Origin: an alpha proteobacterium BAL199
GTDB lineage: Bacteria; Pseudomonadota; Alphaproteobacteria; Thalassobaculales; Thalassobaculaceae
Direction of reading: 5' to 3'
DNA: 64,000 nt
NCBI GenBank assembly: GCA_000171835.1
Contig: ABHC01000009.1
Coordinates: 62,001 to 126,000 of the forward strand
Part shown: one piece after another, positions 11,255-49,994 of the stretch
Numbering within the stretch: the stretch's first letter is position 1
How the letters are laid out: every line of letters starts with the position of its first letter
Position numbers and translations under genes: made by a program
Notes under the pieces: model-generated
What the model was told of the DNA's origin: nothing
Databases searched by the model: none
Seen by the model: only the letters and a program-made list of their open reading frames with translations

Positions 11255-11896
11255 TTATTTCGGCCGGGCCACCAGCATGTTCTCGTAAATCTTGGCGATG
11301 TAGGTCGGATCGGCACCGATCTGCTGATTGGTCCGCGACCGATGCTCGGCCGTCTCGGCCACACCGGCCGCGATCATGATCGGCGCCGGCTCGTCCGGCA
11401 CGACCGCCAGACCGGTCTTCTCAAGCCCCGCCAGGATGTCCTGGCTCTGCTTGCGGAAGCGCTGGAACGAGGCGTCGAACATCGACGAGTCGCGCCGAGA
11501 ACTCGGGTTCGAGGCACGGGCCAACGCCATGGAGAAAATATCGAGAATAAGATTGGCGTTACGGCTTTCGAGCCAGCCGTTGAGCATGGCACCCCAGACG
11601 GCCGATATGTAACCGCGCGAGGCTGATGCCATCATTCCCTTGGACAAGGTCTGGTCGGCGGCGGCCACCATCTCGTCGCTCGGCATCTTGGGAACGATCA
11701 TGAACCCTGCCAATTCCAGGGATTCGACTACGTCCTTGGCGTCTTTCTCGTACTTGTCCCACTCGTTCTCAATCAGGAACGAGCCGAGTATGTCCACCTC
11801 GTTGTTCTGGACATTGTTGAGAAACTTCGCGAACTCCTTGGCGAAGTGCTCAATGATCGTGGGCTGTGGGCGTGGAGCCGGTGTCCTGCCGCGCAT
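11255..11896 (-). CDS. Unknown protein with an internally duplicated GF/L-x-[IV]VP motif
   Basis: A 213-residue soluble protein with no signal peptide. Two copies of one pattern are visible. Residues 51-105 contain ESLELAGFMIVPKMPSDEM and end YISAVWGAML. Residues 149-208 contain AGLEKTGLAVVPDEPAPIM and end YIAKIYENML. Both keep LE-x-[AT]G-[FL], [IV]VP, P, M-[VI]-AA, YI and ML in order. A similar short motif occurs in many small alphaproteobacterial proteins, from memory. The N-terminal 50 residues are helical. Function is unknown; the neighbours include a receiver-domain gene. A good hairpin terminator follows it. Confidence 0.7.
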   Translation of the reverse strand: MRGRTPAPRPQPTIIEHFAKEFAKFLNNVQNNEVDILGSFLIENEWDKYEKDAKDVVESLELAGFMIVPKMPSDEMVAAADQTLSKGMMASASRGYISAVWGAMLNGWLESRNANLILDIFSMALARASNPSSRRDSSMFDASFQRFRKQSQDILAGLEKTGLAVVPDEPAPIMIAAGVAETAEHRSRTNQQIGADPTYIAKIYENMLVARPK

Positions 11897-12120: not shown

Positions 12121-12447
12121 TCACTTCGGGCGTAGAAAGCGGGGCGGTGTCGGGATCGTGATCCGCTCGTCACGACCGGACAGATCGCGCCAGTCGCGCG
12201 CCGTGCTCTGCAGCAGCCGAGCTTTCAAACGCTTGGCCCGCCGGGCAGCGTCGCCGCTGATGCGGGTTCTCTGCCAACCAGGCAACGCATCAAATGCCGC
12301 CGACGCCGTCCGCAGATCAGCGCTGCGGCCGGAGCGATAGGCCCGGTTGACCTCTCGGGCGACCACGCTTGCCGGTCCAAGTTCGGCCGTTACCGTCTCG
12401 GACAACAACCCCAACGCCTGACGATCCCGCGTATCGATCTCGTTCAT
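12121..12447 (-). CDS. Small basic protein of unknown function, downstream of the receiver pair
   Basis: A 108-residue protein with an Arg/Lys-rich C-terminal half (GDAARRAKRLKARLLQ) and a proline-rich end (TIPTPPRFLRPK). I placed the start at ATG 12447, where GAGGCAGG precedes it. An in-frame ATG at 12549 would give 142 residues and overlap the gene upstream by 44 bases. No family is recognised. It runs in the same direction as the genes at 12506 and 13050, so it may belong to their transcript. The 224 bases between it and the gene at 11255 hold nothing I can identify. Confidence 0.55.
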   Translation of the reverse strand: MNEIDTRDRQALGLLSETVTAELGPASVVAREVNRAYRSGRSADLRTASAAFDALPGWQRTRISGDAARRAKRLKARLLQSTARDWRDLSGRDERITIPTPPRFLRPK

Positions 12448-12505: not shown

Positions 12506-13039
12506 TCATGCATCTCGCTGCTGGTCACCCGATCCTCCGTCACTACCATCCGGCCGGAATTTGCGACGGGCTTCGACAAAGGCATCGACAATCGCCTTTT
12601 CAACCACACCACCGCGGCCGGTGATCCGGTTTGCCAGAACGACGTACAGCGCATCAATGTGCAGTCCGACGACCGGACGCTGACGGTCGTCGAGGGATTT
12701 CAGGCCGGTAACGAAATCGTTCAGCGACTTGCCGATCAAGGTCAGCAGGTCGTATCCGATGGTTCCGCCGGCGCCTTTAATCGCCAGCGACGATTCATAC
12801 AGCGACGTGACCAGGACGTTCTGAGCTTCCGGCTCAGGCCCGGTCTCGGCCAACAACTGGCGCATGGCCGCAAGGCGCTCGCCGATATCCTTGGTGAACC
12901 CGTCGCGCGATTTGTGAACGACGTCTTCGAGTTGCTTGATCAGTTCCGGCGTCAGGCGCAGGTCGAAGCCGGTCGTCAGGTTGACGGCCTTTCGCTTCAG
13001 ATCGGAGCGAGGCGGGATGATCTGGGCGCGACGTGCCAT
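12506..13039 (-). CDS. Helical protein partnered with a receiver-domain gene; homologous to the C-terminus of the 47896 protein
   Basis: A 177-residue, mostly helical protein starting ten bases after the receiver gene at 13050. Residues 100-164 align without gaps to residues 275-339 of the protein at 47896. Identical positions include the SL pair at 105-106, G112, L116, H127, D129, V133, L135, RI at 138-139, GG at 143-144, I150, A153, A157, R159 and F161. That protein carries this segment fused behind a receiver-like domain. A segment IKGAGGTIG recalls histidine phosphotransfer domains, but the phospho-histidine position is not His, so I do not call it Hpt. Confidence 0.72.
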   Translation of the reverse strand: MARRAQIIPPRSDLKRKAVNLTTGFDLRLTPELIKQLEDVVHKSRDGFTKDIGERLAAMRQLLAETGPEPEAQNVLVTSLYESSLAIKGAGGTIGYDLLTLIGKSLNDFVTGLKSLDDRQRPVVGLHIDALYVVLANRITGRGGVVEKAIVDAFVEARRKFRPDGSDGGSGDQQRDA

Positions 13040-13049
13040 AACGCCGGCC

Positions 13050-13544
13050 TCAGCCGTCCGAGCCGCGACGATCCGTGCCGCCGAACGGTACCTGGCGGCG
13101 GCGACGGTCGGGTCCGAAATACTCGTCGGCGTTCACAAAGGAACGCGGCTTGGCGATAACCGCCACCAGCCGCCTGTACAGCCCCTCGACATTGAACGGC
13201 TTGGCCAGAAACTCCGTCACCCCTTTGTCGCGGGCATTGACGACATAGTCCTGTTCGGAATTGGCGGTCAGCATGATGATCGGGATCATCCGGTCCGATG
13301 ACTCCGAACTGCTGCGGACCCAGTCGATCAGGACCAAGCCGTTCTCCGGCTCCAGGTGGTACTCGGTGATAATGATATCGACCGGATCGCGCCGCAGGAT
13401 GGCACAGGCCCGCTCGACCGAGTTCGCCGATCGGACCGCGGTCGCCCCCAGGACGCTCAGGATGTCGCGCACCAACTGACTTGACAGTGGGTTGGAGTCG
13501 ACAATGAGGAAGCTCACCTTGGAGAAGTCGATCTTCTCGGGCAT
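13050..13544 (-). CDS. Single-domain response regulator receiver with Glu at the phospho-acceptor position
   Basis: A 164-residue CheY-like protein. The receiver covers about residues 9-132: LIVDSN gives one acidic residue (Asp16), MLTAN the switch Thr93, and FLAKPF the conserved Lys115. At the phospho-acceptor site the sequence is IIITEYHLEPENG, with Glu61 where Asp is usual. The protein may thus be locked in an active-like state or regulated without phosphorylation. The tail has GPDRRRR (144-150) and GTDRRG, a basic motif also found in the protein at 47896. It is first of a likely operon with the genes at 12506 and perhaps 12121. No histidine kinase is nearby. Confidence 0.82.
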   Translation of the reverse strand: MPEKIDFSKVSFLIVDSNPLSSQLVRDILSVLGATAVRSANSVERACAILRRDPVDIIITEYHLEPENGLVLIDWVRSSSESSDRMIPIIMLTANSEQDYVVNARDKGVTEFLAKPFNVEGLYRRLVAVIAKPRSFVNADEYFGPDRRRRQVPFGGTDRRGSDG

Positions 13545-13682: not shown

Positions 13683-14615
13683 TCAGTGGCCAGTCTCCTC
13701 TCGCCGGACGCGCTCGCGAACCGAGATGTAGATCCCGCTGGCGATCAGGATGGCAATGCCGAGCCAGGTCGCGCCGTCGGGGAAATCACCGAACCAGTAG
13801 TACCCAACGATGGTCGCGGTCAGGATTTCGCCATAGCCGAACGGCGCCAGCAACGACGCCGGTGCCTTCTCGAAAGCCCGGATCATCAGGTAGTGCCCGC
13901 CGGCACCGATCGCTCCCATCGCCGCCATGGCTGCCAGCTGCATCGGCTGTGGCGTCACCCAGACCGCCGGCAGCAGGGCACTGGTGGCGACCAGACCGAC
14001 CAGCGAGGTGATCGCCAGCGTGACCAATGGTGGCGCCGCGTGGCTCAACCGCCGGGTCAGCAGAACGTAGCCCGCGAAGCTCGCACCGGCGCCGAGCGCC
14101 AGGAGCGCGCCCGGCTGCAGTACGGTCAGTCCCGGCCGCAACACCACCAGCGCGCCTCCGAAGCCGACCAGCACGGCCATCCAGCGCCGGATGCCGACCG
14201 CCTCGCCCAGCACCAGCGGCGACAGGGCGGTCACAATCAGTGGCGCGATGAACAGCAGGGCCAGAGCGTCGGCGATCGGCATGGTGCGGATTGCCGAGAA
14301 GAACAGGAAGGTCCCGATCAGGATCCCAACCCCGCGCGCCAGTTGCAGCGGGAGGTGGCTCGGCCGCAGCATCGCCTTGGGGCTGGTGCCCAACGCCAGC
14401 GGCACGATCAGCAGCGACTGGAACAGGAACCGCGCCCAGACCAGTTGGGTGATCGCAAAGCTGTCGGCCATCGCCTTGGCGAACCCGTCCATGATCGGCA
14501 GCAGTGCCACCGATGCCAACATCAGCCCGATGCCGAGCAGCGGCCGATCCGGCGGCGGCGCGGCGGGTATGTCCGGGTGCGGTGCATTGGCCAGGTCGGC
14601 AGCGGAGCGGGTCAT
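13683..14615 (-). CDS. EamA/DMT-family transporter
   Basis: Ten-helix inner-membrane drug/metabolite transporter of 310 residues, built from two EamA repeats (about 27-150 and 165-290). The first repeat shows FLFFSAIRTMPIADALALLF and VLGEAVGIRRW, the usual family landmarks; the second shows LLAPFGYGEILTA. ATG 14615 was chosen because the long open frame upstream is not hydrophobic and lies antisense to the next gene. Substrate and direction of transport cannot be read from sequence. It is divergent from the hydroxyacid dehydrogenase at 14703. Confidence 0.88.
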   Translation of the reverse strand: MTRSAADLANAPHPDIPAAPPPDRPLLGIGLMLASVALLPIMDGFAKAMADSFAITQLVWARFLFQSLLIVPLALGTSPKAMLRPSHLPLQLARGVGILIGTFLFFSAIRTMPIADALALLFIAPLIVTALSPLVLGEAVGIRRWMAVLVGFGGALVVLRPGLTVLQPGALLALGAGASFAGYVLLTRRLSHAAPPLVTLAITSLVGLVATSALLPAVWVTPQPMQLAAMAAMGAIGAGGHYLMIRAFEKAPASLLAPFGYGEILTATIVGYYWFGDFPDGATWLGIAILIASGIYISVRERVRREETGH

Positions 14616-14702
14616 GAACGATGGCTTTCCAGAGTGCGGAGCGGTTTGCGGGACCAGCCCGACACGGCCTAGCATGACGGTCCACGGAGGGGGAGGTTTC
14701 CG

Positions 14703-15701
14703 GTGACGGGTCTCGATCGGGTTCGACTGCACGTCAAGAACAATCGGGCCGGCGAGGACGTGTTCCGCATGACCGCCGAGCGGGTCGCCGAGGCCGCTTC
14801 GCGCCGACCGGAAGTGGCGCCGCGGGTCGACACGGTGATCGACTTCGACCTCGACCGGTTCGAGCAGTCGATGGCCACCGCGCACGCCCTGGTCACCTGG
14901 GACCTGCCGACCGCCGAACTGGCGCGCCGGGCGCCGGATCTGCGTTGGATCCACATCATCGGCGCCGGGGTCGAGCACCTGCGTCCGCTCGACTGGCTGC
15001 CGCGCGGCGTGACCCTGACCAACAACCGCGGGGTGCACGCCGAGAAGACTGCGGAGTCGGCGCTAATGGCGGTGCTGATGCTGAACAACCGGATCCCGGC
15101 CTACGTCACCGACCAACGGCACCGGCGCTGGGCGCCGACGTTCGCGACCCCGGTCACCGGCAAGACCGTCGTCGTGGTCGGCGTCGGCGAGATGGGCCAC
15201 GCCGCCGCCCGCGCCTTCAAGAAGGCCGGGCTTCGGGTGCTCGGGGTGCGCCGCGGCGGACGGGCGCGCCGCTATGTCGACCGGATGGTCGGCCCGGACC
15301 ACCTGCACGAGGTGCTGGCCGAAGCCGATTTCGTTCACGTCACCACGCCGCTGACCGAGGAGACCCGGCACCTGATCGATGCAGCGGCGATGGACGCCAT
15401 GAAGCCGGGTGCCCGGCTGATCAACTTCGGCCGCGGACCGGTGGTCGATGCGGCGGCACTGGCCGAGCGGCTGCGCGATGGCCGGGTCGGTGGAGCGATT
15501 CTCGATGTGCACGATCCCGAACCGCTGCCGGAAACCTCCCCGCTGTGGGACGCGCCGAACCTGATCGTCACCCCGCACGTGTCATCGGACGACGACGTCA
15601 GCTACGTGCCGAAGACCCTGGACCTGGTGTTCGACAATCTCGGACGTCTGCTCGACGGCCGACCGCTGCGCAACCGGGTCCGACCGAGCCTGGGTTACTG
15701 A
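14703..15701 (+). CDS. D-2-hydroxyacid dehydrogenase family protein
   Basis: NAD(P)-dependent reduction of a 2-ketoacid to a D-2-hydroxyacid, or the reverse. The nucleotide fold shows VVGVGEMG near residue 160. The active-site arginine lies in NFGRGPVVD, the acidic partner in LDVHDPEPLPE and the catalytic histidine in VTPHVS. The GTG start is preceded by GGAGGGGGAGG, a strong ribosome site. Length 332 is normal. It shares a divergent control region with the transporter at 14615; the two might act on the same compound, but that is only suggested by position. Confidence 0.87.
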   Translation: MTGLDRVRLHVKNNRAGEDVFRMTAERVAEAASRRPEVAPRVDTVIDFDLDRFEQSMATAHALVTWDLPTAELARRAPDLRWIHIIGAGVEHLRPLDWLPRGVTLTNNRGVHAEKTAESALMAVLMLNNRIPAYVTDQRHRRWAPTFATPVTGKTVVVVGVGEMGHAAARAFKKAGLRVLGVRRGGRARRYVDRMVGPDHLHEVLAEADFVHVTTPLTEETRHLIDAAAMDAMKPGARLINFGRGPVVDAAALAERLRDGRVGGAILDVHDPEPLPETSPLWDAPNLIVTPHVSSDDDVSYVPKTLDLVFDNLGRLLDGRPLRNRVRPSLGY

Positions 15702-47706: not shown

Positions 47707-47895
47707 GCACGGCATACCCGGCAGAATCCTCCCCCTTCCCCGCGACCGCAAGCTGGTCGGACACCTGAGCCATCGGCAACCCTTACGCGTCGGACCAACA
47801 GACTCGTTATCCGTGAATGACTCAATTGGTTAAGCCGGCAACCGGCACGCCTCTTGCTCCGTGGACTCCGCTACAACCAGGACGGGGAGTCGAAC

Positions 47896-48987
47896 ATGAC
47901 GCAGCGGCAGGAGGGACGCATTCTGGTCGCCAGCGGCCAGCGCGATGACGCGGTCCGCATCCACAACGCCTATCCGGCACTCGACGACACTTCAATCGAA
48001 TGGGTCGCAACCTCGACCGAGGCGGTCGACCGGCTGCGCGACCCGCGCCACCCCTTCACCATCGCCCTGCTCGACCGGGATCTGACGCCGGAGCCGGCGC
48101 ATGCAGTGTTCAATTTCATTCGGCGCGATCCAGCCAGTCCCTACCCCGGCCTGGCCATCGGACTGATCGGTACCGGGATGCAGCCCCAGGACGTCCGTCG
48201 TGCGATGTACGCCGGCTGCCTGCTGTCGCTCAGCCGGCCGTTCCAACCGGAGACACTCGCCGCGGCGGTTCAGCGCTGGCCGCTCGACCGCTCCGATTTC
48301 CTGGTCAGCGGTGCCTATGTGGGGCCGGAGCGCCGACGGTCCGGCGACACCGCCGATGCCGACCAACGACGCCGGACACTCGCGGTCGAGCAATCGATCG
48401 CCTCGACCGCCGCAGTTTACGACATCGCACCGGAGACCACGGGGTTCCGGTTCAAGCGCCTACCGGCCGGCAACGCCCCTTCGGCCACAGCCCTGTCGCT
48501 GCGCAATGGTCTGAGACGCACCACCCTGACCCCGGCTGTCGCCCATATCGTGATCAAGAAGCGCGAAGGGCTGGGCATGCTCGGCCGCCAGGCCGAGGCG
48601 ATGCGCGAAACCTGGCAGCATCTGCAGGCGACACTGGCGCCGCGCTTGCTGGCCCGGCTGAACGGCCAGGCCGTGCAATGCGCCGACCTATCGTCGGAGC
48701 GCGGCCTGCTGCTGATGGGCGCAATCAGTCGCTCGCTGACCAAGTACAGCGCCGGACGCCATCGGCTGGGTCCACGTCTGGTCGCCTTCCTGCGGGCGCA
48801 TCTAGACGGAGTGACGGTCGCGCTCCGCCATCGCATCGACGACGACGGCGGGCCGACCGGTCGCTGCATCATGGCGGCGCTGAAGGACGCCGAGCGGCGG
48901 TTCGTCGATCCCGACCAGGATGGGCAGAACCCGTCTCCGCCCCCGACCGTCTCCGGCGAGACGAATGCGCGCCGGGCCGATGCCTAG
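47896..48987 (+). CDS. Receiver-like domain fused to a helical domain shared with the 12506 protein
   Basis: A 363-residue cytoplasmic protein. Residues 6-128 look like a degenerate receiver: Asp60 in IALLDRDLTPE occupies the phospho-acceptor place, but the acidic pair is lost (GRILVASGQ) and the conserved Lys is Arg114 in SLSRPF. GPERRR at 143-148 repeats the basic tail seen in the receiver at 13050. Residues 275-339 align without gaps to 100-164 of the protein at 12506. The protein is thus a fusion of two modules that are separate genes elsewhere in the window. ATG 47896 follows GGGGAG. No kinase is near. Confidence 0.75.
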   Translation: MTQRQEGRILVASGQRDDAVRIHNAYPALDDTSIEWVATSTEAVDRLRDPRHPFTIALLDRDLTPEPAHAVFNFIRRDPASPYPGLAIGLIGTGMQPQDVRRAMYAGCLLSLSRPFQPETLAAAVQRWPLDRSDFLVSGAYVGPERRRSGDTADADQRRRTLAVEQSIASTAAVYDIAPETTGFRFKRLPAGNAPSATALSLRNGLRRTTLTPAVAHIVIKKREGLGMLGRQAEAMRETWQHLQATLAPRLLARLNGQAVQCADLSSERGLLLMGAISRSLTKYSAGRHRLGPRLVAFLRAHLDGVTVALRHRIDDDGGPTGRCIMAALKDAERRFVDPDQDGQNPSPPPTVSGETNARRADA

Positions 48988-49928
48988 TCTCCGGTGGTGC
49001 GGCTGGTCTTGGCCGGCTCGACGGTCGGACGGCCGACTTCACGGGCCCGCGATTCGCGATGGGCGATGAACAGCGCGCTCGCGATGATGATCGCCGACCC
49101 GATCCAGGTGTAGAGGCCTGGCGCCTCGGCGAACATTGCGTAGCCGATCAGGGCCGACCACAGCAATTGCAAGAACTTGGCGGCCTGGATCGCCGACATT
49201 TCGCCGACCTTGAAGCCCTGGGTCATGCACAAGTGACCGACGGTCGCCAACCCGGCGATCACGATCGTGATGCCCCACTCCTCAATCGTCGGCGCCTTCC
49301 AGACCAGCATGGCCGGAACGAACGTCACCACGGTCACGATGATCGACAGGTAGGCCACGACCGCCGGCCCGCTCTCCCGCCGGGTCAGCGACTTCGCGCA
49401 CAGGTCCGATGCGGCGAAGATCGGCGCGGCAATCAGCATGGCGATGGCGCCGGGATCCACCTCGACAAACCCCGGTCGCACGATCAGCAGCGCTCCGAAC
49501 AGCCCCACCACGACGGCGGCGATACGAGGCAGCCGGATGCTTTCACCCAGGAACAGCACCGCCCCGATGGTGGCGAACACCGGGTTGGTGAACCCGATCG
49601 CCGTCACCTCGGCCAACGGAATGCGGGTCATCGCGTAGAACCACAGCATCACGCCGGTGCCGTGCATCAGGCCGCGCAGCAGGTGCAGCTTCAGGTTGGC
49701 CGCCACCACGTCCGGCCAGCGCAGCTTGATGAAGAACGGCGCCAGGAACAGCAGGCCGAAGCCATAGCGCATGAACGAGGTCTGGATCGGGTCCATGTGC
49801 GAGCCCACATGCCGGACCAGCGCCATGAAGCACGAGAAGATCAACCCGGACAGGGCGATCCACAACATTCCCTGGACGTTCGGAGGTACTGCCGCTAAAG
49901 CGGCGCGCCACTTGGTGACGAGCGGCAT
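48984..49928 (-). CDS. EamA/DMT-family transporter
   Basis: A 314-residue ten-helix transporter. The first repeat has MLWFYAMTRIPLAEVTAIGF and FLGESIRLPRIAA; the second has LQLLWSALIGYAMFAEAP. ATG 49928 gives the hydrophobic start PLVTKWRAALAAVPPNVQGM. It overlaps the convergent fusion-protein gene by four bases and is divergent from sseA. It is closest in architecture to the DMT gene at 50945. Substrate unknown. Confidence 0.88.
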   Translation of the reverse strand: MPLVTKWRAALAAVPPNVQGMLWIALSGLIFSCFMALVRHVGSHMDPIQTSFMRYGFGLLFLAPFFIKLRWPDVVAANLKLHLLRGLMHGTGVMLWFYAMTRIPLAEVTAIGFTNPVFATIGAVLFLGESIRLPRIAAVVVGLFGALLIVRPGFVEVDPGAIAMLIAAPIFAASDLCAKSLTRRESGPAVVAYLSIIVTVVTFVPAMLVWKAPTIEEWGITIVIAGLATVGHLCMTQGFKVGEMSAIQAAKFLQLLWSALIGYAMFAEAPGLYTWIGSAIIIASALFIAHRESRAREVGRPTVEPAKTSRTTGD

Positions 49929-49994
49929 CAGATGATTTCCGGGTATGCTCGGCACCGACAGGCACCATGGACACCGACAAGGGAGCACGCAGCC

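Follow-up and report, generated by a model that had tools for sequence, protein, structure and literature searches.

A conserved pseudo-receiver/pseudo-HPt gene pair and a separately degenerate fused relative in an alphaproteobacterial genome

Results

Organization of the two loci

The 64,000-nucleotide stretch of DNA analysed here (the window) carries two loci that encode receiver and HPt-like modules (Table 1). At one of them, a stand-alone receiver (R) and a pseudo-HPt protein (A) are encoded on the minus strand, ten bases apart and with R first, so that the gene order, R then A, is also the domain order of the fused protein (F) encoded at the other locus. For F, a longer open frame is possible from a TTG start at 47854. 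Two further conserved genes, X and Y, belong to the same block as R and A. X follows R-A in all 16 loci from the window's own bacterial family and accompanies 4 of the 16 pairs outside it, at least one of these 16 ending near a contig end; relatives of Y are located at the same four outside loci. Genes for EamA-family permeases adjoin both R-A (13683-15038, minus strand) and F (48984-49988, minus strand) in the window, which may be due to chance.

Table 1. Position of the genes and features described in this work
Feature	Position in the window	Strand	Basis
R, stand-alone receiver, 164 aa	13050..13544	minus	Pfam Response_reg (2.2e-18), alignments
R C-terminal end, YFGPDRRRR...GTDRR	within 13050..13544	minus	sequence
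R Glu61 at the phospho-Asp site	codon 13362-13364	minus	alignments
A, pseudo-HPt, 177 aa	12506..13039	minus	alignments, profiles, structure model
A Leu85 at the phospho-His site of intact relatives	codon 12785-12787	minus	alignment
A His127 of the HxD motif, retained	12659-12661	minus	alignment
X, small conserved gene after A, 108 aa (MNEIDTRDRQ...), no Pfam match	12121..12447	minus	
Y, conserved gene, next in the block after X, 213 aa, no Pfam match	11255..11896	minus	
F, fused receiver and pseudo-HPt, 363 aa	47896..48987	plus	ATG at 47896 to stop ending at 48987
F receiver part, residues 1-148, ending in GPERRR	47896..48339	plus	alignments, Foldseek
F Asp60, retained	codon 48073-48075	plus	alignment
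F pseudo-HPt part, about residues 206-340	48511..48915	plus	alignments, profile-profile comparison

R and A lack both phospho-acceptors

R scored 66.9 bits against Pfam PF00072, above the cut-off of 30.2. Alignment placed Glu61, within the stretch I-I-T-E-Y, at the position of the phospho-acceptor, and the acidic pair reads Asp-Ser, the second acidic residue being replaced by serine; the active-site Thr and Lys are retained. With the phospho-Asp and the second acid gone, R is a pseudo-receiver in the sense of PMC12632262, where the loss of any of five conserved residues defines the term. In A, the motif S-L-A-I-K-G-A-G-G-T-I-G-Y is found where intact members have sequences such as L-H-D-L-R-G-Q-A-G-T-F-G-Y, so that Leu85 takes the place of the phospho-accepting histidine. 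Both phospho-acceptors have been lost, a point that the original prediction for this DNA had not made, and these sequences show that the R-A pair cannot hand on phosphate in the canonical way. The same genome also encodes an intact paralogous pair (C69, L002), in which the histidine is present and the receiver shows the residues DD/D/S/K.

The identity of the C-terminal module was examined by profile and structure comparisons. A alone fell short of the Pfam Hpt model (PF01627; 12.8 bits, E 0.14, cut-off 24.6), and 47 of the 55 members of its alignment, A itself not among them, matched that model at E<=0.1. The A profile retrieved CheA P1 structures, with an E of 6.8e-9 to 2ld6. A structure model of A (pLDDT 83.5) showed the helical-bundle fold of HPt proteins. 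CheA P1 came on top in Foldseek with the modest best E of 6.7e-3, and was also the best match in structural comparison, with Z up to 14.9, a scale on which unrelated designed four-helix bundles reach 12.9. The A module therefore has a CheA-P1-like HPt fold, and the statement that no name was available for this system no longer holds for its C-terminal part. CheA P1 is the best solved-structure relative of A, which differs from it in standing alone, in having no kinase and in missing the histidine.

The HxD histidine, His127 in A, was retained in 207 of 214 HPt domains of the family, compared with 139 of 215 for the canonical phospho-His. It is present in 29 of 33 pairs that combine a Glu receiver with a non-His HPt domain and in 95 of 97 intact HPts; because it is equally retained in the latter, a structural role of His127 is more likely than catalysis.

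F is homologous to R-A over both modules

It had been proposed that F joins two modules that are encoded separately by R and A, on the basis of an ungapped alignment of residues 275-339 of F to residues 100-164 of A with about 20 identities and of the similar tails of both receivers. We counted 19 identities over these 65 positions, and both tails are present, F having GPERRR and R having GPDRRRR. The best ungapped F-A diagonal scored 86, compared with 27 for the next best. Smith-Waterman scores were 99 for F against A (shuffled mean 33, SD 4.8) and 71 for F against R (shuffled mean 32), and in both cases none of 2000 shuffles scored as high; the homology of F spans A nearly end to end. In a profile-profile comparison from whose A profile F had been excluded, the C-terminal segments of F and A were assigned to the same family (E 6e-12, probability 97.5%, 109 columns), and the receiver part of F matched the profile of the R class with an E of 1.1e-10. 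These alignment and profile-profile scores rule out unrelated C-terminal families for the two proteins.

The active sites of F are degenerate in a manner of their own. In its receiver part the acidic pair is gone, Lys is replaced by Arg and the Thr site aligns to Gly; with acid pair and Lys missing, F is likewise a pseudo-receiver as defined in PMC12632262. In the pseudo-HPt part the HxD motif is kept and the phospho-His motif is unrecognisable, the aligned residue being Val in an unsure alignment. Searches of F against Pfam and NCBIfam listed no match. Foldseek of a model (pLDDT 65 overall, mostly 70-90 in the receiver part and under 50 in the linker) matched the N-terminus to CheY-like receivers.

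Relatives of F were found in 6 of 36 genomes of the order, namely the three genomes of the genus, G005, G034 and, as a weak match, G035. In the tree F forms a long separate branch of unsure placement; 6.4 changes per column separate its ancestor from the nearest non-F row, and only 65-131 HPt columns are aligned in the F rows. Against class profiles, which differ in size and diversity and so allow a weak comparison, F scored 167 with intact pairs, 163 with fused members, 162 with other non-His/Asp members, 136 with the R-A class and 133 with the His/Asn class. F represents a distinct and much more diverged lineage, a fused member of the family that has degenerated separately. Given that it retains Asp, that its HPt motif is unrecognisable and that the R-A class is not the closest to it, the window carries two differently degenerate members of one family, and not one module present once in split and once in joined form. 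Of the proposed split/fused relationship, the common family and the common order thus stand, and the reading of F as the joined form of the window's own R-A does not.

The same genome encodes a second fused relative (F2, C53). In this genome, in G001 and in G002 the F2 copy is flanked by a radical-SAM gene on one side and, on the other, by a gene for a B12-binding protein with DUF1638 after it; the single F copy of G005 has the same neighbours. Such corrinoid operons with F-type genes are those at L253 (893-6646), L273 (6100-10500), L274 (4893-9233) and L287; in L253, Pfam identified Memo/AMMECR1 and radical SAM before F, and B12-binding protein, DUF1638 and Virulence_fact after it. This arrangement suggests that the F-type proteins within the operon are regulators of that pathway. 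Near the window's F, its G001 and G002 orthologues and the G034 copy, no radical-SAM, B12-binding or DUF1638 genes were found.

Distribution of the family in Alphaproteobacteria

A match to the HPt-family profile at E<=0.001 was obtained in 192 of 385 alphaproteobacterial genomes, 31 of which had a best E weaker than 1e-10 and may hold other Hpt proteins. At most nine candidates were scored per genome, in this survey and in that with the class profile described below, so copy numbers are lower bounds; the richest genomes have at least nine matches. The family table comprises 221 distinct HPt-family domains from 214 loci, chosen by profile hits and not at random, with rows merged only if identical. 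A partner receiver was accepted if the tail was present or if its score exceeded 120 bits against a profile in which the tail is included. A receiver lies directly before the HPt domain in 136 cases (R-A order), after it in 4 (A-R) and is fused to it in 47; for the remaining 34 no receiver was present within 700 bases, and 4 of these domains are close to the end of their locus. In line with the genome survey that had been proposed, a receiver was thus adjacent or fused to 187 of 221 domains, and 180 of these 187 receivers carried a GPDRRR-type tail. Neither of the outcomes named beforehand as refuting the relationship, different families for the C-terminal segments or no co-occurrence with GP[DE]RRR receivers, was observed.

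Table 2. Residues at the phospho-acceptor sites of the 221 HPt-family domains
HPt site/receiver site	Number
His/Asp	68 adjacent, 30 fused
His/Asn	22
His/Ala	2
non-His/Glu	33
Leu/Asp	14 fused, 5 adjacent
other non-His/Asp	9
site unreadable	4
HPt without receiver	His 18, Phe 9, Leu 5, Trp 1, Asn 1

The combinations of residues at the two phospho-acceptor sites are given in Table 2. Non-His members made up 76 of 215 at a score of 75 or more, a share that is inflated relative to the published 0.9% because the profile was partly built from A orthologues; in the available part of that source, 90 of 10,312 Hpt domains are without the histidine and 2.0% of receiver domains without Asp (PMC12632262). 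No His/Glu pair was present among the 221 domains. The Leu/Asp fused subgroup (L071, L080, L084, L092, L095, L099, L108, L113, L115, L118, L121 and others), with phospho-His lost and Asp kept, interleaves with intact fused rows in the tree. In seven loci of the His/Asn class, including L060 (7923-8525), a Flavoprotein-family gene, UbiX-like by eye, is situated shortly downstream on the same strand, and a GapR-like gene on the opposite strand occurs near fused members in 12 loci, including L102 (2949-3194).

Within the window's genome, the DNA pattern for GP[DE]RRR occurred at 56 sites compared with 6 in the control. Most of the 30 sites that were read correspond to frames without sign of a receiver; clear receiver or F-family sites among them are those in C53, C54, C57 and C61. 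A tailed Asp receiver is located beside a hybrid kinase (C57). A stand-alone Glu receiver with the GPDRRR tail is encoded at C54 14717-15199 (G000, L335) with no family HPt within about 1.5 kb, which indicates that Glu needs no pseudo-HPt neighbour.

The Glu/non-His pairs are essentially one old clade

All 33 Glu receivers of the paired set have a non-His HPt partner and none has a His partner; 16 of the 33 come from the window's own bacterial family. The residue at the phospho-His position of these pairs is Leu in 21, Phe in 7, Arg in 2, Tyr in 2 and Ile in 1. The second acidic residue of the receiver is lost in 31 of 33, and Thr/Ser and Lys are kept in all 33. Glu61 is invariant in the 19 aligned class receivers (alignment A5, which excludes L052), and two further receivers of the class, found by profile score alone, also carry Glu, their HPt partner being cut off by contig ends. 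That Glu is constant and the His position varies suggests, at the level of sequence, that the receiver residue is under selection and that the HPt residue has been released from it. In the 33 pairs the frames of the R and A domains are uninterrupted; some rows carry flags for stops, and those that were read lie beyond the HPt domain.

When the class profile was run over the 385 genomes, at least 21 hits reached 229 bits or higher, spread over 18 genomes from nine families, and the next hit scored 185. An HPt partner adjoins 19 of these 21 receivers, and the remaining two are truncated at contig ends. A tree was calculated from 129 pairs thinned at 75% identity (20 of them from this class), after removal of the two phospho-site columns, of rows scoring below 75 bits, of the rows for F and of pairs in which a site could not be read. 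In it, 19 of the 20 Glu/non-His pairs formed one clade with a support of 100. The remaining pair, that of Caenispirillum bisanense (L052), has its two genes in the opposite order, sits on a very long branch and scored 128 bits with the class profile, compared with 214-257 for the other 16 held-out members and at most 170 for non-members; a common origin of all 20 rows was not rejected (p-AU 0.38). The class that has lost both sites is essentially one old clade present in nine families, and since both sites were lost essentially in a single event, the association of Glu with non-His has not been replicated many times.

Mean receiver identity was 55% in the class, 45% in intact pairs, 55% in His/Asn and 56% in fused Leu/Asp members; as the class equals two other classes in this respect, the value shows conservation and not a special constraint. 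The correlation of R and A distances in the class was 0.82, or 0.68 without L052, with none of 500 permutations as high either way; part of it comes from shared species history, and intact pairs show 0.50.

Discussion

We propose that R and A form a phosphate-independent binding pair that evolved from a phosphorelay step, a reading to which we assign a probability of about 0.5. R and A derive from a widespread alphaproteobacterial phosphorelay cassette, and in this paralogue both phospho-acceptors disappeared long ago, Asp being replaced by Glu in R and His mostly by Leu or Phe in A. According to our proposal, R would be locked in one, probably active-like, conformation with the help of Glu61, A would bind the locked R, and the complex, perhaps together with X where it is present, would act as a phosphate-independent docking or regulatory unit. 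The more specific idea that this is an old, dedicated phosphate-free receiver-HPt complex, in which the two proteins remained partners and took on a new function, we hold more tentatively, at somewhat below even odds.

The main rival, which we regard as unlikely, is that A and/or R are decoys that occupy kinases, receivers or HPts of intact relays and thereby damp them. Plant AHP6, a pseudo-HPt with the HPt fold and no phospho-His, is the system to which such a role can be likened. The domains of R and A do belong to the same families as the parts of intact relays, and potential targets are available in the same genome, which encodes the intact paralogous pair and ten Pfam Hpt matches elsewhere. 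For a decoy, however, one protein would suffice, whereas every class receiver not cut by a contig end has its HPt partner adjacent and R and A diverge together. Transfer of phosphate through other residues, for example from the near-invariant His127 of A to an alternative site in R, is far less probable: the retention of His127 beyond that of the canonical histidine, also in most of the class without acceptors, would fit it, but this residue is just as conserved in intact HPts and is missing in 4 of 33 members of the class, and Glu in R together with the near-general loss of the second acid argues against acyl-phosphate chemistry.

The original reading of F as the joined form of the R-A module with the same job is about as improbable. 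Significant homology over both parts in the same order speaks for it, but F keeps Asp and is missing the HPt motif, the R-A class is not its closest relative in the weak comparison with class profiles, some F relatives belong to a corrinoid operon, and its long branch, estimated from few HPt columns, places it far from any other row; the view that F arose by joining R and A of the window was rejected for these reasons. That R and A are decaying duplicates without function, as the loss of both active sites could imply, is the least credible of these explanations, and pseudogene decay was dismissed in view of the unbroken frames, the spread over nine families, Glu in all 21 class receivers and the conserved neighbour genes.

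Fusions of receiver and HPt, pseudo-receivers and His-less HPts are each already known separately. For RR-HPt fusions, 312 proteins in 264 species are given in Table 2 of PMC4558063; as in F and the 47 fused members, receiver and HPt are in one chain, and F differs from the fusions described in that table in that its HPt motif and the greater part of its receiver active site are gone. In the available parts of PMC4395418 and PMC12632262, Glu is the most frequent replacement in aspartate-less receivers (26%), and according to the former it can give constitutive activity, although Asp-to-Glu alone often fails to activate receivers. Like R, such receivers have lost the phospho-Asp and the second acid, carry Glu and keep Lys; R differs in being a stand-alone protein with a neighbouring pseudo-HPt, a pair not named in those parts of the two papers. 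A resembles ChpA of Pseudomonas in having an HPt fold without the phospho-His, but, as far as the cited part of that work goes, the His-less domains of ChpA lie inside a large kinase, whereas A is a separate protein encoded next to a Glu receiver (PMC10542144). HmrX (CC_1220), a putative HPT of Caulobacter that affects motility and biofilm, shares with A its published Foldseek matches 8C5V, 2LD6 and 1I5N, as would any P1-like protein, and has in the part of the source considered a candidate phospho-His, H81, that is absent from A (PMC11481889); a kinship based on these common structure matches is only a lead. In the open-access literature, a coverage outside which most subscription papers fall, we found no description of a conserved pseudo-receiver/pseudo-HPt pair and no paper with 'GPDRRR' in its full text.

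The R-A pair thus offers a pseudo-receiver with a candidate partner that is itself a pseudo-HPt, across nine families, for which the intact paralogous pair of the same cell can serve as a control, and the half-dead states of the family, His with Asn and Leu with Asp, provide a natural series of what can be lost. The question is testable with two small proteins. If our proposal of a phosphate-independent pair is true, R-A would be a natural system for learning how a partner takes the place of phosphate in controlling a pseudo-receiver, and it may help to show how receiver and HPt parts function without phosphate.
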